From a virus: 20,583 nucleotides of DNA. This document shows positions 616 to 20,520 of this stretch, piece after piece. Position 1 is the stretch's first letter. Every line of letters begins with the position of its first letter. The stretch spans positions 1 through 20,583 of IMG/VR virus record IMGVR_UViG_3300028384_001194, one strand, 5' to 3'. The notes beneath the pieces were generated by a model that worked only from the letters and a program-made list of their open reading frames with translations, was not told the DNA's origin and did no database searches. The translations under genes and the position numbers were made by a program.

Positions 616-1043
616 TGGCAACACTTACAGTAACCATACAAGAGAGCATTACTCTCAACGGATCTGAAAGAGGATCTACGAACACGATTGATATGACTGG
701 CATCACCCAGTTGGATCAACGTATCGTAAAGGTGGGGACTACAGAGCAGTCTCTGGTCCTTTTCGATACGGCGGAGGCTGCAGGTCAGTTCGCTGACTCC
801 AGCGTAGACTACGTTCGTATCACGAACTTGGACCTCACGAATTTTATCACACTGCGTATGACCTCTGGGAACGACGAATATTTCGTTAAGCTCTCAGCGG
901 GTGACACCTTTGTGTTGTTTGAAACTGTCATGGATACCGATGATGACGCTGGCGCAGCCGTAGCATCATTGGCAAACATCGACTCTATTAAAGCAGTGGC
1001 CAATACTGCGTCCTGCAACGTTGAACTATTTGTAGCAGCATAA
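615..1043 (+). CDS. Decoration-like beta-rich structural protein (paralogue of the 18289 and 18684 products)
   Basis: This 142-residue protein has alternating hydrophobic and polar residues throughout, as expected for a beta-sandwich. It has no signal peptide or membrane segment. A central block, YVRITNLDLTNFITLRM, then a loop, then KLSAGDTFVLFE, then DSIKAV near the C-terminus, matches in order and spacing the products encoded at 18289 and 18684 (IYIRVASNN..YVTLTV, YGGDFAFLPW, DIKL). The three are probably paralogous small virion surface proteins, such as head or tail decoration proteins. That role is inferred from the fold-like pattern and from two of them sitting beside the scaffold and capsid genes. 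The start is fixed by the TAATG overlap with the upstream stop, and the stop overlaps the next ATG in the same way. Confidence 0.8.
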   Translation: MATLTVTIQESITLNGSERGSTNTIDMTGITQLDQRIVKVGTTEQSLVLFDTAEAAGQFADSSVDYVRITNLDLTNFITLRMTSGNDEYFVKLSAGDTFVLFETVMDTDDDAGAAVASLANIDSIKAVANTASCNVELFVAA

Positions 1044-1642
1044 TGCCTAAAACACTAAAAAAGCCAGGACCCGATCAAGCGGGTTTGAAAAAACTACCCG
1101 AGAACGTTAGAAACAAGATGGGGTACATGAACAATGGAGGAAAGCTCAGAAAGAAGCTTGACAAAATTGCTGCCAGAGCTCAGAAGAAAGCTGAAAAGGC
1201 TCACGCCAAGGGAGAGAAGAAAGGAGGTAAGGTCGTAGGAACCAAGAGAGTTACTACTGCCGCCGAACCAAGAGGTCTCACCTCAAGAAGAGAGACAGTA
1301 AAGGTTTACGAGAAGGAGCAAAAGGCACTCGATAAGGGCGTTCGAAAGCAGAGTAAGGCGATTGACAAAGACTACTTCAAGGGCCAAAGAAAGAAGAAGC
1401 GTAAGGCTAAGAGAGCTGGAGCAAACTTTATTCAAAGAGCCGCAGCTAAGTCCAAGAGAAGATCAACTGGAAGTGGATCTAGGTCTAGAACGGGAGGTCC
1501 TTTGAGCAGAGCCATTGGTAGGGTCTCTGAGAGAATCGCCAATAAGGGCACTGCTGGATCTAAGGCCAGAAAGAGAAGCCGAGGCTGCGGTAAAGACTGC
1601 CAGAGAAAAATTAGAGCTGGTCAAGCTGGGTTCAATAAGTGA
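1043..1642 (+). CDS. Very basic Lys/Arg-rich protein, possible DNA-condensing virion protein
   Basis: By my count 63 of 199 residues are Lys or Arg, spread along the whole chain and concentrated in clusters such as GQRKKKRKAKR (about residues 114-124). Ala- and Lys-rich heptad-like stretches (about residues 35-60) resemble histone H1-like or HU-tail sequence. A small Cys pair (GCGKDC, about residues 181-186) lies near the C-terminus. The segment NNGGKLRKK near residue 31 recalls NKGGKLK in the small basic protein encoded at 17682. No catalytic motif is visible. Nucleic-acid binding, for example condensing packaged DNA, is inferred from composition alone. The start is fixed by TAATG overlap with the upstream gene. 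Confidence 0.8.
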   Translation: MPKTLKKPGPDQAGLKKLPENVRNKMGYMNNGGKLRKKLDKIAARAQKKAEKAHAKGEKKGGKVVGTKRVTTAAEPRGLTSRRETVKVYEKEQKALDKGVRKQSKAIDKDYFKGQRKKKRKAKRAGANFIQRAAAKSKRRSTGSGSRSRTGGPLSRAIGRVSERIANKGTAGSKARKRSRGCGKDCQRKIRAGQAGFNK

Positions 1643-3246: not shown

Positions 3247-4371
3247 ATGGCATATAGAAGAACAAGACAGTCTGGTCAAAAAAGGAAGTCTAACAAGATA
3301 TCAAAGCAGATGTCTAGAAAGACCCCCCTTAGAATACCTGTTCTCGAAAACAAGGTAGATAATCAAGTCAAGCAGCTCAACGTTCAGGTCCCTTCATCAA
3401 GCTCAAACTTAAATCTTGATGACTGCGCTCTAATGGCTTGGGGGCAGTCTATAACTGCTGCACCTAATGCAGGTGGTCAGGGAGGTCTTCCTTATGGTCC
3501 TGACATTCAGCTCAATGTTGCCCCCCCGCTTCCCCCGAATCCTTTTTCTGACATAAGCCCCGTAGAGTTCCTTAACTACTGGGGCGTTCAGGCTCCAAAT
3601 GGATCATACCCTCTTGGTGCAAGCGGAAACCTAAACATCTCCTATACTGTGCGTATTTGGACGGGATCTGTTAATAATCTCGACGAGTTTGCTTTGATGA
3701 CTCTTCAGCCTGGCATGTTTATGCACTGTGTTCGTCTGACGGGTAAGGCCAGATTGGTAAAAGCTAATGGTCAAGAAATTCAGCTTCACTTCGAGCACAA
3801 GAACAGTATACCAGTAATCGCCTATTCAAGCATAGACTTTAATAGCGGTGGCGGTGGATTTGGCATCGGAGGCGGAGGAACAGGATCTGGGGGCTCATAT
3901 CCTGTTTATCAGCCAGACCCTAATGGCATAAAGTATATTGAGTTTCACTGTCACGACGTACAAGTCCCTATTGATAAGTGTTTTTGGAAGTTAAGCAACT
4001 TGACCTATCACGCTCCAGGTCAAAGCCCTGGTTTTGTTCTGCCTAACCCGAACTGGCCATTTTCTTATGGAATTGACGCCAACTTTGGACTTAATATGAA
4101 CAACTCTTTCCCAGTCTCGAACCACTTTGAGTATGGTGATAGATTGATCATAGAGAACATTACCGCTCACGCAAATCCCTTCTGGGGGCTCAAGAACTGC
4201 AGCTACTCAATAGCTGTAGACGAGGACGGAGATGGACAAGCAGATGACTTCTTCGGGAATATTGTTAATGTGAATGGATCGGGCCCCGCGCCAGTATCAG
4301 GGGGCAACGCTGGTGGTAATCTGATGACCATGCTCCCATCAGAGACTAAGGTCCTTGAATTTATTGCCTAA
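3247..4371 (+). CDS. Glycine-rich fibre-like or surface structural protein with a Ca-binding-like loop
   Basis: The 374-residue product has a strongly basic N-terminus (first 35 residues, RRTRQSGQKRKSNK) followed by beta-rich sequence with many aromatic, Asn and Pro residues. There is a poly-Gly hinge (SGGGGFGIGGGGTGSGGS) near residues 200-217. Near the C-terminus DEDGDGQAD (from residue 325) has the DxDxDGxxD pattern of EF-hand or thrombospondin type 3 calcium-binding loops. I do not recognise the family. A basic arm plus beta domains and a Gly hinge would suit an exposed virion protein. The ATG at 3247 follows the upstream stop by one base; an upstream extension to 3184 exists but would overlap the preceding gene by 62 bases. 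Confidence 0.75.
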   Translation: MAYRRTRQSGQKRKSNKISKQMSRKTPLRIPVLENKVDNQVKQLNVQVPSSSSNLNLDDCALMAWGQSITAAPNAGGQGGLPYGPDIQLNVAPPLPPNPFSDISPVEFLNYWGVQAPNGSYPLGASGNLNISYTVRIWTGSVNNLDEFALMTLQPGMFMHCVRLTGKARLVKANGQEIQLHFEHKNSIPVIAYSSIDFNSGGGGFGIGGGGTGSGGSYPVYQPDPNGIKYIEFHCHDVQVPIDKCFWKLSNLTYHAPGQSPGFVLPNPNWPFSYGIDANFGLNMNNSFPVSNHFEYGDRLIIENITAHANPFWGLKNCSYSIAVDEDGDGQADDFFGNIVNVNGSGPAPVSGGNAGGNLMTMLPSETKVLEFIA

Positions 4372-4793
4372 GAGTTTTCAAGCCTATTGTAAAAAGCCTG
4401 CACTAACAAGCGGGCTTTTTGCGTTATGGCATATCTGACTCTGTAGTTGTATTTCGTCTCTTCTCTGAATAGATGATCTTCAAGCGTTTGAGACGGAGTC
4501 ATCTTGTCAAAGTGTTTGTAGATGTAACCCTGCTTAACTAACTCATACACAAGTCTTTCGCCCAGCTTCTTTTCTGAGTAGTCGTAATCCTCTGCAGCAT
4601 ACTTAAGTGTCCAGAACTCCAGGTCGTATGCCCACAGCAAAAACATGAGTTCTTTCTCGAAGATATCCTTGTCTCTGCAGAAGCTTTTGACCGTGGTTCT
4701 CAGCCTCTTGAGGTAGTTGTTTTTTACGTACCTTTGATTTAATCTAGAAAACTCTCTGAAAAGCTTCTTCTTTGAGACTACGCTTTTTGGCAT
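4368..4793 (-). CDS. Winged helix-turn-helix DNA-binding protein (MarR-like), only reverse-strand gene
   Basis: This 141-residue protein is basic at its N-terminus (first 40 residues). Its middle looks like a MarR-type winged helix: a helix around ELMFLLWAYDLEFWTLKYAAED (49-70), a probable recognition helix around YSEKKLGERLVYELVKQGY (72-90), and a charged wing (FREETKYNYRVRYAITQ, 109-125). A final helix, KARLLVQAFYNRL, follows the ITxKxRxLV pattern common after the wing. I infer a transcriptional regulator or nucleoid-type binder; the target is unknown. It is the only gene on the minus strand and its stop overlaps the end of the convergent forward gene by four bases. No clear promoter is visible upstream on its strand. 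Confidence 0.72.
   Translation of the reverse strand: MPKSVVSKKKLFREFSRLNQRYVKNNYLKRLRTTVKSFCRDKDIFEKELMFLLWAYDLEFWTLKYAAEDYDYSEKKLGERLVYELVKQGYIYKHFDKMTPSQTLEDHLFREETKYNYRVRYAITQKARLLVQAFYNRLENS
4391..4420. terminator. Bidirectional intrinsic terminator hairpin
   Basis: An 11-pair stem (AAAAAGCCTGC with GCGGGCTTTTT, one G-T wobble) closes an 8-base loop. It has A5 on the left arm and T5 on the right, so it can terminate in either direction. It lies 20 bases past the stop of the forward gene ending at 4371 and inside the last codons of the convergent reverse gene. Confidence 0.7.
4708..4736 (+). promoter_or_regulatory. Candidate Bacteroidota-type promoter for the 4805-6433 genes
   Basis: TACCTTTG at 4729-4736 fits TAnnTTTG, with a TTG at 4708-4710 spaced 18 bases upstream as a possible -33 element. 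The forward genes from 4805 are cut off from the left arm by the hairpin at 4391-4420, so a promoter is expected here, inside the 5' part of the reverse gene. The match is shorter than the nine-base element seen elsewhere. Confidence 0.35.
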
Positions 4794-6433: not shown

Positions 6434-6510
6434 CCGCGAGTATCTCCTCAAGCTTATACCTTGTAGAAAGAGTAATTGGTCACATGTGGGTTCAAGCCCC
6501 ACCTCGCGGA
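6434..6510 (+). tRNA. tRNA-like element with non-canonical lower half (isotype not assignable)
   Basis: The acceptor arms CCGCGAG (6434-6440) and CTCGCGG (6503-6509) are perfectly complementary over 7 pairs and are followed by A at 6510. The T arm GTGGG-TTCAAGC-CCCAC (6486-6502) is canonical and abuts the acceptor as in a true tRNA. The total of 77 bases is tRNA-sized. The 45 bases between (6441-6485) do not give me a convincing D arm or a 5-pair anticodon stem. TTGTAGA at 6461-6467 resembles a Tyr-type anticodon loop, but its flanks do not pair. No CCA is encoded. It may be a degenerate tRNA, an odd functional one, or a tRNA mimic. Confidence 0.45.
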
Positions 6511-6518
6511 CTTTTCGC

Positions 6519-6527
6519 TATATTTGC
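6519..6527 (+). promoter_or_regulatory. TATATTTGC promoter element, probable leaderless start
   Basis: This nine-base element fits the Bacteroidota -7 consensus TAnnTTTG and ends exactly three bases before the ATG at 6531, so transcription would begin at or next to the start codon. No clear -33 TTG is visible. The predicted transcript covers the 6531 gene, tRNA-Arg, the Cys-motif protein and the terminase. Confidence 0.65.
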
Positions 6528-6530
6528 GTC

Positions 6531-6788
6531 ATGGCTACTGTAAAAAAGACAGCACAGTATTACAAGGACAATCCTGAAGCAGCTAAGAAAAAGTCTGAAT
6601 ACGACACTGCCTTTAATGCCACTCCAAAGCAGAAAAAGATAAGAGCCCTGAGAAACAAGCTTAGGAGATTTTTCAAAAGGCGTGGCGAGGTTAAAGAGGG
6701 TGACGGAAAGGATGTCCATCACACAGGAGGAACCTCTGTAGGAACCGCCACCGTGATGCCTGCCTCTAGAAACAGAGCGATAAAATAA
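6531..6788 (+). CDS. Small basic phage protein of unknown function
   Basis: The 85-residue product starts MATVKKTAQYYKDNPEAAKK, continues KKSEYDTAFNATPKQKKIRALRN, and ends with GKDVHHTGGTSVGTATVMPASRNRAIK. The order Y-x-NPEA-KK, YDTxFN, KDxxHT and then an SRNRA ending is one I associate with a small protein seen in marine phages and large DNA viruses. The HH plus terminal N-R residues faintly recall an HNH nuclease end, but no complete HNH motif is present, so no activity is assigned. The ATG at 6531 is preferred over an in-frame start at 6402, because that extension would be read through the tRNA-like element and the promoter. Confidence 0.75.
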   Translation: MATVKKTAQYYKDNPEAAKKKSEYDTAFNATPKQKKIRALRNKLRRFFKRRGEVKEGDGKDVHHTGGTSVGTATVMPASRNRAIK

Positions 6789-6794
6789 AAATCT

Positions 6795-6868
6795 GCGCTC
6801 GTAGCTCAGCTGGATAGAGCATCTGCCTTCTAAGCAGACGGTCCCAGGTTCGAATCCTGGCGGGCGTA
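6795..6868 (+). tRNA. tRNA-Arg (anticodon TCT)
   Basis: A full cloverleaf can be drawn. The acceptor is GCGCTCG/CGGGCGT with two G-T wobbles including 1-72; the D arm is GCTC-AGCTGGATA-GAGC; the anticodon arm is TCTGC-CTTCTAA-GCAGA; the variable loop is CGGTC; the T arm is CCAGG-TTCGAAT-CCTGG; the discriminator base is A. Anticodon TCT reads AGA/AGG arginine codons, which are frequent in the basic proteins of this window. CCA is not encoded and must be added. It lies 6 bases after the 6531 gene stop and 14 bases before the next ATG, so it is processed from a longer mRNA. Confidence 0.95.
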
Positions 6869-6882
6869 CTAAATTTAATAAA

Positions 6883-15937: not shown

Positions 15938-17347
15938 ATGGCTACTTCATGGAAGCGCGTACTTACTGATGCGGATCTGGGTAGTCTTAGCGGAGACAAC
16001 TTAGGTAGCGCAGACCTCACTCAGGATGATGCCACAAGGGTGTACGACATGGGGGCAAACTCATCCCTTGAGTTTCAGCACTTATATGGCAGTGGCGTAA
16101 ATCTTACAGCGCTTGAGATATATCAGAATGGGGCAAGTCCCTACTCTAATCACCTGCTATACCTAGGTGATTCTGGAGGCGCTGGCGGAGTTTTTATAGG
16201 GATGAAGGATGCTGGCAGCAGATATAAGCTGCCTCTGTCAAACACCTGCGCAAGCGGGAAAATAATGTCTGGTGACAGTTCATCTGTATCTGCATTCAAC
16301 ACCATAGAGACACTTCTCAACCCTACAAACGGCACAGCTTATTCTCACGGCTCCTACAACACCTTTTCTGTTGTACCAAGCGCAGATAAGCTTCTTGTCT
16401 ATGACAACAGTCAAAACAAGTTTGGGATACGAACTATAGATGATGTTGTCGGGGGTGTTGATGACAACCTTGCCACTAGTGACCTCACCCAGGCCGACAA
16501 TGATAGATCTTATTTTCTTCCAGCGAACACTGGTGGTTCTGCATTGAGATTTGCAGGCACCGTAGATGGCGACGTTGAGAATATGATTCAGGTGGAGTGT
16601 GACTCCAACTCTGCCAGCAACCTCGACAGCTATGTTCACCTAAAGAACCCTCGGATTGGCACCCTTGGAAATAGCGGTAACCCAGGCGCTAGTGGCTACG
16701 GACTTCCTCCGCAGTCTAACTCTGTGGGGGCTGGTGAAATCCTTGTCACCAACAATTTTTCTAGTGATGAAGGGGAGATGACTTTCCAGACTTTTGGAGA
16801 GGTTCTAGACCCCGCTACTGGATCAGGTCTTTACTCAACTTCATACCTCACGGCTGGCTCTGTTAGCTACGGCAGTGATTCGTACCTTATTTATGATCAG
16901 ACGGGATCGGGAGGACTTAGGCACATAAGGCCTTATGAACTTCGGGCCCCTCAGCTGTTTCATTTTGGGAGCACTGCTTCGGGTCAGACGGTAACCATGA
17001 GGGGCGTAAATGGTGTTCAACACAACGTGACGTCAAACGGAGTGACCATACCCAAGGCCATGGCCCTGGCCTCTCTTTCATTCTCCCTCAAGAAAACGGA
17101 TAACGGCACGGGAACTGCCAAATTTGAGATCTGGAGAAATGGAAATAAGTATATGGAAACTAGTTCCGTGGTTAATGGTGTTGAGGCGACTCAGAACGAA
17201 TGGGTTCATGGGAACACCCACTTTACTGCTAGTAGTGGTTATCAGTCCCCCAAGATTTTTGCAGAGGGCGATTGGTTTGCTGTAAGAATAGTCAAATCGG
17301 GCACCTGCGGAACGGGAGCCCACCAAGTGACCTTGCGATTTGTCTAA
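15938..17347 (+). CDS. Fibre protein with WKRVL-type N-terminal anchor and duplicated shaft motif
   Basis: The 469-residue product begins MATSWKRVLTDADLGSLSGD, like the 14156 product. A motif is duplicated about 160 residues apart: DNLGSADLTQDDATRVYDMG (about 20-39) and DNLATSDLTQADNDRSYFLP (about 175-194), each followed by a short strand ending in LEF or LRF. The D-L-T-Q-x-x-x-x-R-x-Y/F pattern recurs in phage fibre shafts. The C-terminal 110 residues (from about VTMRGVNGVQHNV) read like a compact beta-sandwich with KFEIWRNGNKYMETSS and WFAVRIVKSG, plausibly a receptor-binding tip. It is closed by a strong terminator that overlaps its stop codon. Confidence 0.8.
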   Translation: MATSWKRVLTDADLGSLSGDNLGSADLTQDDATRVYDMGANSSLEFQHLYGSGVNLTALEIYQNGASPYSNHLLYLGDSGGAGGVFIGMKDAGSRYKLPLSNTCASGKIMSGDSSSVSAFNTIETLLNPTNGTAYSHGSYNTFSVVPSADKLLVYDNSQNKFGIRTIDDVVGGVDDNLATSDLTQADNDRSYFLPANTGGSALRFAGTVDGDVENMIQVECDSNSASNLDSYVHLKNPRIGTLGNSGNPGASGYGLPPQSNSVGAGEILVTNNFSSDEGEMTFQTFGEVLDPATGSGLYSTSYLTAGSVSYGSDSYLIYDQTGSGGLRHIRPYELRAPQLFHFGSTASGQTVTMRGVNGVQHNVTSNGVTIPKAMALASLSFSLKKTDNGTGTAKFEIWRNGNKYMETSSVVNGVEATQNEWVHGNTHFTASSGYQSPKIFAEGDWFAVRIVKSGTCGTGAHQVTLRFV

Positions 17348-17370
17348 AAAGAGGCTTCGGCCTCTTTTTT
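17346..17370 (+). terminator. Strong intrinsic terminator with TTCG tetraloop
   Basis: The stem AAAAAGAGGC/GCCTCTTTTT closes the stable tetraloop TTCG and ends in a T run that continues directly into the promoter at 17371. Its left arm begins inside the TAA of the fibre gene. It should end the fibre transcript; the A/T arms could let it work on the other strand too. Confidence 0.9.
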
Positions 17371-17379
17371 TATATTTGC
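17371..17379 (+). promoter_or_regulatory. TATATTTGC promoter element, probable leaderless start
   Basis: An exact nine-base element abuts the terminator T run and ends three bases before the ATG at 17383, the same spacing as at 6519-6531. It should drive the four small basic genes. A -33 TTG at the expected distance is not visible because that position is occupied by the terminator stem. Confidence 0.7.
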
Positions 17380-17382
17380 ATT

Positions 17383-17682
17383 ATGCCTAGAGTCAAGAAG
17401 AAGCGTAAGGCCGTAATGCCCAAAATGAAGATGGGGGTTCACAAGAGTAGATCTGGTGGACTCACGGCCAAGGGTGTTGCTGCGTATCGCAGAGCCAACC
17501 CTGGAAGCAAGCTTAAGACTGCTGTCACAGAATCAAATCCCAAGGGTAAAAGAGCTGGCAGAAGAAAGTCCTTCTGTTCTCGCATGTGCGGAATGAAGAA
17601 AAGGCTTACTAGCGCCAAGACCCGTAGAGACCCTAACTCAAGAATCAACAAAGCTCTGCGTAAGTGGAGATGCCGCTGCTGA
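17383..17682 (+). CDS. Small Cys-containing basic protein (DUF6321-like)
   Basis: The 99-residue product has 34 Lys/Arg by my count. The signature SGGLTAKGVAAYRRANPGSKL followed by K-x-A-V-T-E-x-N-PKGKRAGRRKSFCSRMCGMKK and ending ALRKWRCRC matches a small family in phages and large DNA viruses that I recall as DUF6321; the name is from memory. Cys65 and Cys69 (CSRMC) and Cys97 and Cys99 (CRC) could bind metal. Function is unknown; nucleic-acid binding is inferred from composition. The ATG at 17383 is chosen because the promoter lies directly before it; upstream in-frame codons overlap the fibre gene and terminator. The stop overlaps the next ATG (TGATG). Confidence 0.82.
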   Translation: MPRVKKKRKAVMPKMKMGVHKSRSGGLTAKGVAAYRRANPGSKLKTAVTESNPKGKRAGRRKSFCSRMCGMKKRLTSAKTRRDPNSRINKALRKWRCRC

Positions 17683-17867
17683 TGAAGTCTGTAAAGTACA
17701 ATAAGGGAGGTAAACTCAAGGTATCACAGAAGACTGTTTCTGTTGATCCCCCTCAGGGCTATCACTGGATGGAAGAGCGTGGTCGCTACTTCCTGATGAA
17801 GGGTGAATACAAGCCTCACCCAGGCGCTGTTGCCAAAGCAAAATTCAAAACCGTGAATCATGGCTAA
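17682..17867 (+). CDS. Small basic phage protein with GYHWM motif
   Basis: The 61-residue product begins MKSVKYNKGGKLKVSQKTVS, then has PPQGYHWMEERGRYFLMKGEYKPHPGA and ends KAKFKTVNHG. The order PxGYHWM...Y.LMKGxYKPHxGAxxxAxF is one I recognise from small proteins of marine phages, without known function. The start codon is fixed by the TGATG overlap with the preceding gene; an in-frame ATG at 17664 lies further inside that gene. It overlaps the next small gene by eight bases. Confidence 0.78.
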   Translation: MKSVKYNKGGKLKVSQKTVSVDPPQGYHWMEERGRYFLMKGEYKPHPGAVAKAKFKTVNHG

Positions 17868-18000
17868 AGTATTGAAAGACGCATGCTACCATAAGGTAAA
17901 GGCTCGCTACAAAGTATGGCCATCAGCCTATGCTTCTGGGGCTTTGGCCAAGTGTCGCAAGGTTGGCGCATCCAACTGGGGAAACAAGAGCAAGAAGTAA
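17860..18000 (+). CDS. Very small basic phage protein (YKVWPSAYASGA type)
   Basis: The 46-residue product begins MAKVLKDACYHKVKARYKVW, then PSAYASGALAKCRKVGASNW and ends GNKSKK. This K-x-RYKVWPSAYASGA-x-x-KCRKxGAxNWG block is a very conserved small protein that I recall from cyanophages, other marine phages and giant DNA viruses; its function is unknown. Two Cys (9 and 32) and about one-quarter Lys/Arg suggest nucleic-acid or metal binding as an inference. It starts within the preceding gene and its TAA shares a base with the next ATG. Confidence 0.85.
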   Translation: MAKVLKDACYHKVKARYKVWPSAYASGALAKCRKVGASNWGNKSKK

Positions 18001-18248
18001 TGGGCAGGGTCAGAAAGACACAGGCTGGCCTTAACCTTAAGAGATGGTTCAAAGAGGACTGGAGGACGTTATCTGGAGACAAGGACTATTCAAAGGGGGA
18101 TAGGACGTTCCGTCCCACGAAAAGGATTTCAAGTAAAACTCCAGTCACCGCATCAGAACTTACTGAGGGAGAGAAACGTAGGGCCAAAAGAGAAAAAAGA
18201 GAGAAGGGCAGGGTGTCCAGGTACAGAGTTCTTAAGAGAAATAGATAA
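18000..18248 (+). CDS. Small basic phage protein (LKRWFKEDW type, DUF5872-like)
   Basis: The 82-residue product begins MGRVRKTQAGLNLKRWFKED, continues WRTLSGDKDY, then FRPTKRISSKTPVTASELTE and a Lys/Arg-rich tail (GEKRRAKREKREKGRVSRYR). The combination LKRWFKExW...RPTKRxSxKTPxTxxEL resembles a family I recall as DUF5872, found in phages and large DNA viruses; function is unknown. The start at 18000 (TAATG) is chosen over an in-frame codon at 17916 that would run through the preceding small gene. It is the last gene of the basic cassette; no terminator is seen after it. Confidence 0.82.
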   Translation: MGRVRKTQAGLNLKRWFKEDWRTLSGDKDYSKGDRTFRPTKRISSKTPVTASELTEGEKRRAKREKREKGRVSRYRVLKRNR

Positions 18249-18252
18249 TCCC

Positions 18253-18261
18253 TATATTTGC
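18253..18261 (+). promoter_or_regulatory. TATATTTGC promoter element for the head-protein genes
   Basis: An exact nine-base element lies 5 bases after the stop of the basic cassette and 27 bases before the ATG at 18289. It would give an A-rich leader of about 20 bases, unlike the leaderless arrangement at 6519 and 17371. An A/T-rich untranslated leader is typical of well-translated genes in Bacteroidota. Confidence 0.65.
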
Positions 18262-18288: not shown

Positions 18289-18684
18289 ATGGCTACAACA
18301 ACCGCAAGTCTCTCTATCAACAGCCCAGACATCTCTGGTGACGTTATAGCGATCAGCAAAAACACACAGCTCAAGAAGGCTGGTGTATCTACGGGCCTTG
18401 ATCAGACGACTGGAGTCGGCAAGAAGATCACTACGGCTACCACTCAATACACCCTCTTTGCTCAGGGTGATTACACAGACGACAAGGCTCACAAGATCTA
18501 CATCAGAGTTGCCTCTAACAACGTGACGGAGTACGTTACCTTGACTGTTGGCTCTCAAAGCGTTGGTAGAATTTACGGAGGCGATTTCGCTTTCTTGCCT
18601 TGGGATGGTACCGCTGACATCAAGCTGACGCCAAGCGTTTCTACTTCTTTGGCTGTAGAGTACTTCCTCGCATTTGAAGTCTGA
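18289..18684 (+). CDS. Decoration-like structural protein, paralogue of 615 and 18684 products
   Basis: The 131-residue all-beta protein begins MATTTASLSINSPDISGDVI, with central KIYIRVASNNVTEYVTLTVG, then IYGGDFAFLPWDG, DIKLTPS and a final VEYFLAFEV. The same strand order and the GGxFAFxP turn occur in the next gene and, more divergently, in the gene at 615. It is probably a small, abundant virion protein such as a capsid decoration or head-tail component, inferred from its own promoter, the A-rich leader and the adjacent scaffold and capsid genes. It has no signal peptide. The stop overlaps the next start. Confidence 0.8.
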   Translation: MATTTASLSINSPDISGDVIAISKNTQLKKAGVSTGLDQTTGVGKKITTATTQYTLFAQGDYTDDKAHKIYIRVASNNVTEYVTLTVGSQSVGRIYGGDFAFLPWDGTADIKLTPSVSTSLAVEYFLAFEV

Positions 18685-19079
18685 TGGCTAGAGTTAAAGC
18701 AGGACTAACGTTCAGTACTGCAGACGCTCTCTCCTACCCTATCAACCTTAACAAGTCCTTTACGGGTCCCGTTGATTCTGGACACGTGATTAAGACTAAG
18801 GTTTTGGGTACGGCTCAGGGTTCTGACGCTGTTACTATTGCCAAGGCTAACGACAAGACGGATGTAGCCTACGTCTATCTGTGCAACTTGGCGACGATAA
18901 GAGAAGAATACATTTACGTCTACACGGGAAGTACCGATATCCTCAAGCTTGCTGGAGGTGAGTTTGCATTTGTCCCCGCCATGCCAGACATCGACCTGAA
19001 GGTCTATGGTACGGCGGTTGGTCAGATGATTGAGTACGGTGCATTCGGTGTTGACGACACACAAGCTAAACTCTCGTAA
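18684..19079 (+). CDS. Decoration-like structural protein, paralogue of 18289 product
   Basis: This 131-residue protein, the same length as its upstream neighbour, begins MARVKAGLTFSTADALSYPI and has VAYVYLCNLATIREEYIYVYTG, LKLAGGEFAFVPAMPDIDLKVYG and a final MIEYGAFGVDDTQAKLS. The order of strands, the AGGEFAFVP turn, the D-I-x-L-K strand and the E-Y-x-x-F-x-V ending align with the 18289 product, so the two probably arose by tandem duplication and could form a mixed structure or occupy separate sites. It starts in the upstream stop (TAATG) and is followed two bases later by the next ATG. Confidence 0.8.
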   Translation: MARVKAGLTFSTADALSYPINLNKSFTGPVDSGHVIKTKVLGTAQGSDAVTIAKANDKTDVAYVYLCNLATIREEYIYVYTGSTDILKLAGGEFAFVPAMPDIDLKVYGTAVGQMIEYGAFGVDDTQAKLS

Positions 19080-19081
19080 TC

Positions 19082-19402
19082 ATGGCTCATCCAAATGAAT
19101 ACCTGCAGAAGCAGGCCCCAACTAAGATCGTGCTTGTTGACGAAGCTCAGTCTTACAATGGAGAATTCTATGCGTACACCCCCGTCATACTCGCCAGCGG
19201 GATAACTTCCTTTGTTGTTCAGACACCTGACAAAGGAAACGTCACCGAGTACGATACTACAGATACTGAATTCAAGGAGACTGCAGCTAAGACAGACATC
19301 ACCATGCCAGCTGCAGTTGGTGTAACCGTCTTTGGAAGATTCAGCAAGTTCACTGGAGTGGCAAACTGCTCTGTGATTTTGTACCTGGAAGAACAGGACT
19401 GA
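19082..19402 (+). CDS. Small structural protein of unknown family
   Basis: The 106-residue protein begins MAHPNEYLQKQAPTKIVLVD and is beta-rich afterwards: FYAYTPVILASGITSFVVQT, then a polar loop with five Thr around YDTTDTEF, and FGRFSKFTGVANCSVILYLEEQD. The Gly-x-Phe-x-x-Phe turn near residue 85 and the strand at the end look like a compact beta domain, but it does not clearly align with the two preceding paralogues. It is in the head operon and is presumably virion-associated. A short A/T-rich stretch, not a terminator, separates it from the scaffold-like gene. Confidence 0.72.
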   Translation: MAHPNEYLQKQAPTKIVLVDEAQSYNGEFYAYTPVILASGITSFVVQTPDKGNVTEYDTTDTEFKETAAKTDITMPAAVGVTVFGRFSKFTGVANCSVILYLEEQD

Positions 19403-19428: not shown

Positions 19429-20520
19429 ATGGAAGAAAATAACATCACCAACTTTGAGATTGCCTCCTCTCCAGAAGAGCTGCAGGCAAGTATGGATCGC
19501 GAGGCTCAGCAGGAGCCTCAGAACCCAGTACAAGAAGCGGCTCAAGAGCAGGCCCCAGAGCCTGCCCAAGAGACGCCTTATGTAGACCCAGACGCTGCTC
19601 CATCAGAACCTCAGCAAGAGGTTCAGACTGAGCAACCACAACAAGAACAACAAGAGGAATATGCCGATGAGGATATCGAAGGTGCTGTTCTCAACTACCT
19701 GAGCGAGAGGCTCGGAAGAGAGATTAGCGATTTTGATGCCTTGGCTGAGCCTCAACAAAATGCTCTTGATGAGAGGATAGAAGCGATTTCTCGCTTTGTA
19801 GATGAGACTGGAAGGGCTCCAGAAGATTGGTTTGCATACCAGCGGCTTGACCCGTCCGAGATGGACGACTTTACCGCTATTCGTGTGGACCTTGCTACTG
19901 AGTACCCCAACTTGACTACCGACGAAATCAATACTCTCGTCAATAGCAAGTACAAAGTTGATCCCGACCTCCACTCTGAGGAGGAGGTTCAGCTGTCAAA
20001 GCTTCAGATGAAGATTGACGCTCAGAAGGCCAAGGCTAACATCGAGACGATGAGAAACGAGTACATGGCACCTGAGGTTGATTCTTCTGTTGATGTCGAT
20101 GACGTTTTCGACGAGACTTGGGTCAGAAACATGGTCGCGGAAGTTGATGCCATGACAGGGTTGGAATTTGACCTTGGCAATGACAACACCTTCACGTTTG
20201 GCCTTGATGACGACTACAAAGCTCAGCTCATTGATTCTAACGCTAGACTTGATGAGTACTTTGATCCTTACGTCCGAGAGGATGGTAGCTGGGATTACGA
20301 TATGCTTTCTTCACACAGAGCTGTGATTGACAACATCGACAAGATTGTTTCTGCTGCTTATCGGCAGGGCATGGGCGATGGTCAGCGCGGCATTGTAGAC
20401 AAGGCGGCTAACGTACAAGCTCAGACACCGCAGGTCGGACAACAAACTGATGGTGACCCCGTCATTTCCCAGCTAAAACAAATAATGGGAGACGGAGGTC
20501 GCATGACTTTCAAAATCTAA
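19429..20520 (+). CDS. Scaffold-like capsid assembly protein
   Basis: The 363-residue acidic protein has an N-terminal low-complexity segment (about 25-75) rich in Gln, Glu, Pro and Ala. A helical region follows (AVLNYLSERLGREISDFDAL, about 87-106; LSKLQMKIDAQKAKANIETMRNEYM, about 188-212), and then a second acidic domain. The last 30 residues are Gln- and Gly-rich and end in a short basic and hydrophobic tail (GDGGRMTFKI), the usual coat-binding position in scaffolds. Composition, helicity and position immediately before the capsid gene all support a scaffolding protein that directs procapsid assembly and then leaves. No protease motif is seen. Confidence 0.75.
   Translation: MEENNITNFEIASSPEELQASMDREAQQEPQNPVQEAAQEQAPEPAQETPYVDPDAAPSEPQQEVQTEQPQQEQQEEYADEDIEGAVLNYLSERLGREISDFDALAEPQQNALDERIEAISRFVDETGRAPEDWFAYQRLDPSEMDDFTAIRVDLATEYPNLTTDEINTLVNSKYKVDPDLHSEEEVQLSKLQMKIDAQKAKANIETMRNEYMAPEVDSSVDVDDVFDETWVRNMVAEVDAMTGLEFDLGNDNTFTFGLDDDYKAQLIDSNARLDEYFDPYVREDGSWDYDMLSSHRAVIDNIDKIVSAAYRQGMGDGQRGIVDKAANVQAQTPQVGQQTDGDPVISQLKQIMGDGGRMTFKI

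Follow-up and report, generated by a model that had tools for sequence, protein, structure and literature searches.

Four small basic proteins encoded beside the head genes of a marine Pervagoviridae-like phage: candidate nucleic-acid-binding proteins of the phage head

Phage T4 packages the small, basic internal head proteins IPI–IPIII together with its DNA; they are encoded at an exchangeable locus and carry a capsid-targeting sequence that is cleaved. Basic, DNA-associated proteins are also present in the virions of PBCV-1 (A278L, A282L and A523R), and ascovirus P64, in which two-Cys adaptor repeats are combined with basic repeats, condenses DNA (PMC3281028, PMC6163548). For phage heads, by contrast, basic proteins are considered to play a small part in neutralising charge (PMC3281028). 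Here we describe four genes, g1–g4, in a 20,583-nucleotide stretch of viral DNA (IMG/VR record IMGVR_UViG_3300028384_001194; hereafter the window). Whereas association with DNA has been demonstrated for the PBCV-1 proteins and P64, g1–g4 are known from sequence, and they have no Pfam family in common with those proteins. No homology to T4 IPI–IPIII was found either, and by eye no cleaved capsid-targeting sequence of the T4 type is apparent on any of the four.

Two described groups of proteins resemble the cassette in sequence. In cyanomyoviruses, the T4-GC119 proteins (phrog_727; SSM1_115 of S-SM1, PSSM2_123 of P-SSM2 and also ORF29 of S-SCSM1) unite a g3 module and DUF6321, the family of g1, in one late-region protein encoded near terminase and neck genes. 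These are large fused proteins with extra domains, whereas the window has separate tiny genes in the order g1-g2-g3-g4, transcribed from a promoter of the leaderless kind. That T4-GC119 has a g4-like module is suggested solely by eye and through weak transitive matches; homology of g4 to its two-Cys 'LRDWF' module received no support from hhalign and was rejected. The second group is DUF5872 of the algal giant viruses CeV-01B and CpV-BQ1, in which g3-like and g4-like halves make up a single 116-position Pfam profile, in contrast to the two genes found here. g4 matches this family in sequence, and the predicted-fold match is to CeV-01B; for CpV-BQ1, a DUF5872 protein is listed in one report (PMC12085832). 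The literature on DUF5872, DUF6321 and DUF5824 amounted to one bare mention, with no function described for the domains of g1 and g3.

The cassette, its promoter and its surroundings

TerL (40–48% identity) and portal (24–31%) of the window match those of Flavobacterium elemoviruses, Cellulophaga phages (phi38:1, Pervagoviridae) and Maribacter and Tenacibaculum phages. Judged by homologous TerL, portal, scaffold and capsid genes in the family order, this is a marine, Pervagoviridae-like phage, the capsid part of the assignment coming from a relative (L091; loci of the comparison set are numbered in this way). We regard flavobacteria as its hosts. The features discussed below are as follows.

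1043-1642, plus strand: 199-aa basic protein, net +49, with no family
6519-6788, plus strand: leaderless promoter (TATATTTGCGTCATG) and, from 6531, the gene for an 85-aa basic protein of phrog_6437, net +14
17346-17369, plus strand: terminator-like hairpin with a 10-bp stem and a T tract, which ends the preceding gene and adjoins the T-rich upstream part of the promoter
17371-17378, plus strand: promoter element TATATTTG, of the Bacteroidota -7 type, 4 nt before the g1 ATG; probable leaderless start
17383-17682, plus strand: g1, 99 aa, pI 12.0, net +32, 4 Cys; DUF6321
17682-17867, plus strand: g2, 61 aa, pI 10.1, net +9, no Cys; without a Pfam or PHROG family
17860-18000, plus strand: g3, 46 aa, pI 10.2, net +11, 2 Cys; N-terminal half of DUF5872
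18000-18248, plus strand: g4, 82 aa, pI 11.4, net +18, no Cys; C-terminal half of DUF5872
18253-18260, plus strand: second TATATTTG promoter element, ahead of the head-side genes
18289-19402, plus strand: h1–h3, three small genes that separate the cassette from the scaffold-like gene; h1 and h2 are conserved in synteny
19429-20520, plus strand: h4, acidic scaffold-like protein, net -55; homologue of phi38:1 gp92

A sequence-only reading of this DNA had described four overlapping, strongly basic genes of 99, 61, 46 and 82 residues; coordinates and lengths are exact, and with pI values of 10.1–12.0 and net charges of +9 to +32, summing to +70 per set, all four products are indeed basic. Its description of them as partly Cys-bearing, with conserved cysteines, holds for g1 and g3, each with two Cys residues that are invariant or nearly so, but not for g2 and g4, which have none here. 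The overlaps are 1 nt for g1/g2 (TGATG), 8 nt for g2/g3 (ATGGCTAA) and 1 nt for g3/g4 (TAATG). Predicted tryptic peptides are TAVTESNPK (g1), TVSVDPPQGYHWMEER (g2), VWPSAYASGALAK (g3) and TPVTASELTEGEK (g4). The similar basic proteins reported at 1043 and 6531 also exist, the latter with the same leaderless promoter as g1. Basic genes are clustered within the window beyond chance (post-hoc permutation, p ~0.017); the decisive evidence for this clustering is conservation across loci rather than the permutation. Proteins like the product of 1043-1642 are located between g2 and h4 in L122 and L127. The gene at 6531 is followed by a tRNA-Arg(tct) at 6795-6869 and directly preceded by a tRNA-like sequence (6434-6510) that lacks a normal D-arm and scores 28.2 bits, just below the Rfam cut-off of 29. 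A 141-aa ORF at 4368-4793 is apparently the sole minus-strand gene of the window.

The cassette was also said to stand between a terminator and a promoter and to have a leaderless promoter of its own, and both claims are borne out. TATATTTGC occurs six times in the window against 0.10 expected, at 17371 and 18253 among other places, and the arrangement TATATTTG-N4-ATG recurs with the same 4-nt spacing before g1 in many loci despite unrelated DNA upstream. Because this spacing recurs across syntenic loci, a leaderless g1 start is well supported by the comparison. At the 308 TATATTTG sites of 86 syntenic loci, the distance to the first ATG is 4 nt in 99 cases and 5 nt in 25, other short distances mostly accounting for 0 to 10 cases each. 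The motif generalises to TAnnTTTG, which we take to be the Bacteroidota -7 element, in line with the nearest phages, whose hosts are flavobacteria. Of 63 non-redundant sites that have the ATG at 4 nt, nearly all show TA at the two free positions of the motif and 59 continue with C or T; upstream of them is a T-rich stretch. A canonical -33 TTG element is not enriched (4 of the 63 promoters, against 10 in a control stretch); promoters with the T-rich stretch and without an enriched -33 TTG are perhaps a late phage type. TAnnTTTG-N4-ATG also precedes several structural genes (for example L091:16975, L109:17604 and L116:15433). The hairpin before g1 is present in some relatives and missing from others.

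The placement just before the head genes stands in part: the cassette adjoins h1–h3 and the scaffold-like h4, but the capsid gene itself lies past the end of the window. h4 matches gp92 of Cellulophaga phage phi38:1 (phmmer E=1.1e-25), which directly precedes the capsid gene there, and in L091 a capsid-family gene (phrog_13704) comes next after the h4 homologue. phi38:1 and the Flavobacterium elemoviruses share with this phage the GroES-TerL-portal-scaffold-capsid backbone; unlike it, they have no cassette between portal and scaffold. Four genomes (phi38:1, one elemovirus, Manatee Spring and Panino) have the scaffold-like and capsid genes immediately behind the portal, and the g1 and g4 profiles match nothing in them. 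Since these cultured relatives have none, the cassette is an accessory of a marine lineage, outside the core head module.

Families and predicted folds

g1 is a member of DUF6321 (PF19846), matching the full profile (positions 1-72) at 72.5 bits against a cut-off of 28.5; its residues C65 and C97 are invariant. g2 has a conserved motif, GYHWM...GRYFLMKGxYKPHPGA. g3 is 80–90% identical to segments of cyanomyovirus proteins and matches positions 6-42 of DUF5872 (PF19197) at 14.9 bits, under the cut-off, so that g3 alone is not counted as a member. g4 is a member, with 48.5 bits against a cut-off of 27.5 over positions 49-111; the Cys pair of its family is present in part of the members only. As g3 aligns to the first and g4 to the second of these segments, we treat the two genes as a putative DUF5872 split in two, noting that no single protein here holds both halves. 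The four families of the sequence-only reading thus do not all stand apart, g3 and g4 being the two parts of a single Pfam family.

g1 and g4 were folded separately with AF2. The g1 model is mostly helical (pLDDT 78.7, pTM 0.48); it has no fold match in the PDB, whether to known DNA-binding folds or otherwise, at the moderate confidence of these models, and its significant named matches are phage proteins, with no giant-virus DUF6321 among them. Fold comparison pairs the g4 model (pLDDT 79.8, pTM 0.58) with the DUF5872 protein of Chrysochromulina ericina virus CeV-01B (E=1.6e-5). The idea that these families are common to marine phages and giant viruses is therefore confirmed for DUF5872 alone. 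Histone, MC1 or HU-like homologues of g1–g4 were sought in Pfam, which gave no match, and by PDB sequence search, which gave no significant one.

All four genes are under purifying selection, with median pairwise dN/dS of 0.135 (g1), 0.105 (g2), 0.084 (g3) and 0.078 (g4). K/R and non-K/R positions are about equally conserved, and this high conservation beyond the basic residues is suggestive of a specific fold or partner and not of bulk charge.

Linkage, fusion and replacement

Gene order in other genomes had been proposed as a check, and it shows the families to be linked rather than randomly placed. Across 166 loci and the window, some of them overlapping or near-duplicates and most retrieved through g4 or g2, so that counts are conditional on these two and neighbours are unselected, all four families are present in 42 loci (two more were set aside), and the exact order g1-g2-g3-g4 is found in 40. 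The arrangements g1-g3-g4 and g3-g4-g1 are common in other clades. The synteny TerL-portal-...-cassette slot-head gene is found in 86 loci. Natural fusions join g1, g2 and g3 in one 218-aa protein (L031), g4 and g1 (L026, L046 and L052) and, in the T4-GC119 proteins among neck and terminase genes, g3 and g1. Elsewhere, clades of other phages carry the cluster beside other genes, sometimes fused to unrelated domains. Pelagibacter phage HTVC027P encodes a DUF6321 protein and, two genes away from it, a protein resembling DUF5872 (21.0 bits, under the cut-off); the pair is located upstream of GroES and the capsid gene. Among cultured phages, podovirus P-SCSP1 bears such domains too. Phage records matching the domains in one collection number 546 for g1 and 366 for g3, nearly all marine. 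Among 84,980 cellular genomes DUF6321 gave 19 matches, on short contigs that are mostly metagenome-assembled or from uncultured organisms and may be viral in origin.

Many syntenic loci with g2 have no g1, g3 or g4. In those, the first gene behind the same leaderless promoter encodes an unrelated basic protein of phrog_7595 (net +21 to +29); g2 comes next, then two further genes for small basic proteins. One replacing protein belongs to DUF5824 (Pfam, 35.0 bits against a cut-off of 25), and some of these loci hold a divergent g4 (hhalign probability 98.6%), apart from which the replacing families have no detectable homology to g1, g3 or g4. phrog_7595 was rejected as a g1 homologue (1.8% probability; only a KRKSFxAR-like motif in common); it also matches part of phrog_220, 'minor head protein and DNA pilot'. 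In 40 non-redundant slots, delimited from promoter to head gene, there are about four small genes, and 94% of slot genes have a net charge of at least +5. Slots that hold both g1 and g4 (n=21) and slots in which HMM search found neither (n=17) have the same median total, +72; these medians are approximate because mechanical gene calling missed or misjoined some genes (the script gave the window three genes and +59 instead of four and +70). Individual totals range from -6, the value of a single locus into which a large gene is inserted, to +88. A tentative extension, which we consider rather less probable than its opposite, is that the families are swapped while selection maintains four proteins and a total of about +70 in the head-side slot, as a virion chromatin toolkit of small polycationic modules shared by tailed phages and giant viruses.

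Virion homologues and the role of the cassette

In CsCl-purified particles of cyanophage S-CREM2, ORF137 was detected by 4 unique peptides (4.1% coverage) and ORF160 by 7 (13.1% coverage), together with other non-structural cargo (PMC10665884). Both are annotated as hypothetical; we assign ORF137 the g1 domain and ORF160 the g3 domain. ORF29 of S-SCSM1, which bears both domains, is annotated 'virion protein', and the study of that virion identified 45 proteins by mass spectrometry (PMC9602691). The DUF6321 protein of S-SZBM1 (SSZBM1_192) is not among the detected virion proteins legible in a table of 30. The virion-detected homologues are fusion proteins, larger than g1–g4, and both virion papers themselves allow for co-purification (PMC10665884, PMC9602691).

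The N-terminus of ORF160 (AAGATGFTGAAAPEGPVAGYDPLM) is identical in 18 of 24 residues to residues 61-84 of the S-CREM2 major capsid protein. In the capsid protein this stretch comes shortly after an LTE/A sequence, which we take to resemble a T4-type prohead cleavage site. The same arm is present in S-SCSM1_97, annotated as a virion protein, and in SSM1_197 of S-SM1, and basic sequence follows the arm in all three proteins (L008:3239-4132 for ORF160, L203:1622-1807 for S-SCSM1_97 and L204:1806-2354 for SSM1_197). In cyanomyoviruses the copy looks like a signal for capsid docking or targeting.

We put at about an even chance the reading that g1–g4 are late, head-associated nucleic-acid-binding proteins, forming one unit and acting together. 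The sequence comparisons suggest, short of proof, that they bind viral DNA inside the head, and DNA condensation, the 'phage chromatin' of the sequence-only reading, is plausible. g1–g4 would be one transcription unit from the leaderless promoter, presumably expressed late, and the stop/start overlaps probably couple their translation. The products would be small folded polycationic modules (DUF6321, the nameless family of g2 and a split DUF5872), made with the capsid proteins, that would enter or line the head, where they may bind and perhaps condense packaged DNA, possibly to be ejected with it. Linkage, order, head-side place, promoter, DUF5872 in giant viruses and virion-detected homologues support the sequence-only reading in part; DUF6321 in giant viruses was not confirmed. 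Against binding in the head stand the undetected S-SZBM1 protein, the cultured relatives that do without the cassette, and the lack of a match to known DNA-binding proteins, by sequence for all four and by fold for g1. A role purely in charge neutralisation is disfavoured both by the equal conservation of non-K/R positions and by the DUF6321 protein missing from one of three virion proteomes. On an assumed ~400 copies each and a 60-kb genome, g1–g4 would offset the charge of roughly one DNA phosphate in four; with copy numbers in the tens, the same estimate leaves very little DNA charge neutralised.

The strong conservation of the non-basic residues leaves some probability to two other explanations. 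The proteins might be effectors, packaged in few copies and ejected, as with T4 IPI*, to shield phage DNA or gain control of the cell rather than to organise DNA. The exchangeable cassettes, the conserved non-basic residues, the capsid arm on the g3-domain protein ORF160 and the other cargo of S-CREM2 virions (PMC10665884) would all fit, but specific effectors would not be expected to be replaced by non-homologous proteins of the same total charge, and g1–g4 match no counter-defence family in Pfam or PHROGs; we consider this unlikely. Slightly more doubtful still is that they are assembly factors absent from the final virion, serving as basic partners of acidic h4 or as terminase or packaging helpers. 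The cassette does lie directly upstream of h1–h3 and the scaffold-capsid pair, h4 is strongly acidic, the cyanophage domain is encoded between neck, terminase small and terminase large genes, and the S-SZBM1 protein went undetected in the legible part of its table. Yet the domains were detected in S-CREM2 virions and annotated as virion protein in S-SCSM1, and other clades have the clusters in different gene neighbourhoods, in some cases with fusions to unrelated domains. It is improbable that the proteins act late inside the cell, on the ribosomes, RNA polymerase or nucleoid of the host: small size, basic charge and strong conservation across phages of unrelated hosts would suit such a role, but the structural-gene neighbourhood and the virion detections speak against it, and hosts as different as cyanobacteria, SAR11, Bacteroidota and (for DUF5872) eukaryotic algae are unlikely to offer one conserved, host-specific target.

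Their linkage and fusions, their replacement at equal charge and the virion detections make of these small basic proteins a hypothesis, open to experiment, about the companions of DNA in phage heads, and DUF5872 ties a phage family to one found in algal giant viruses.
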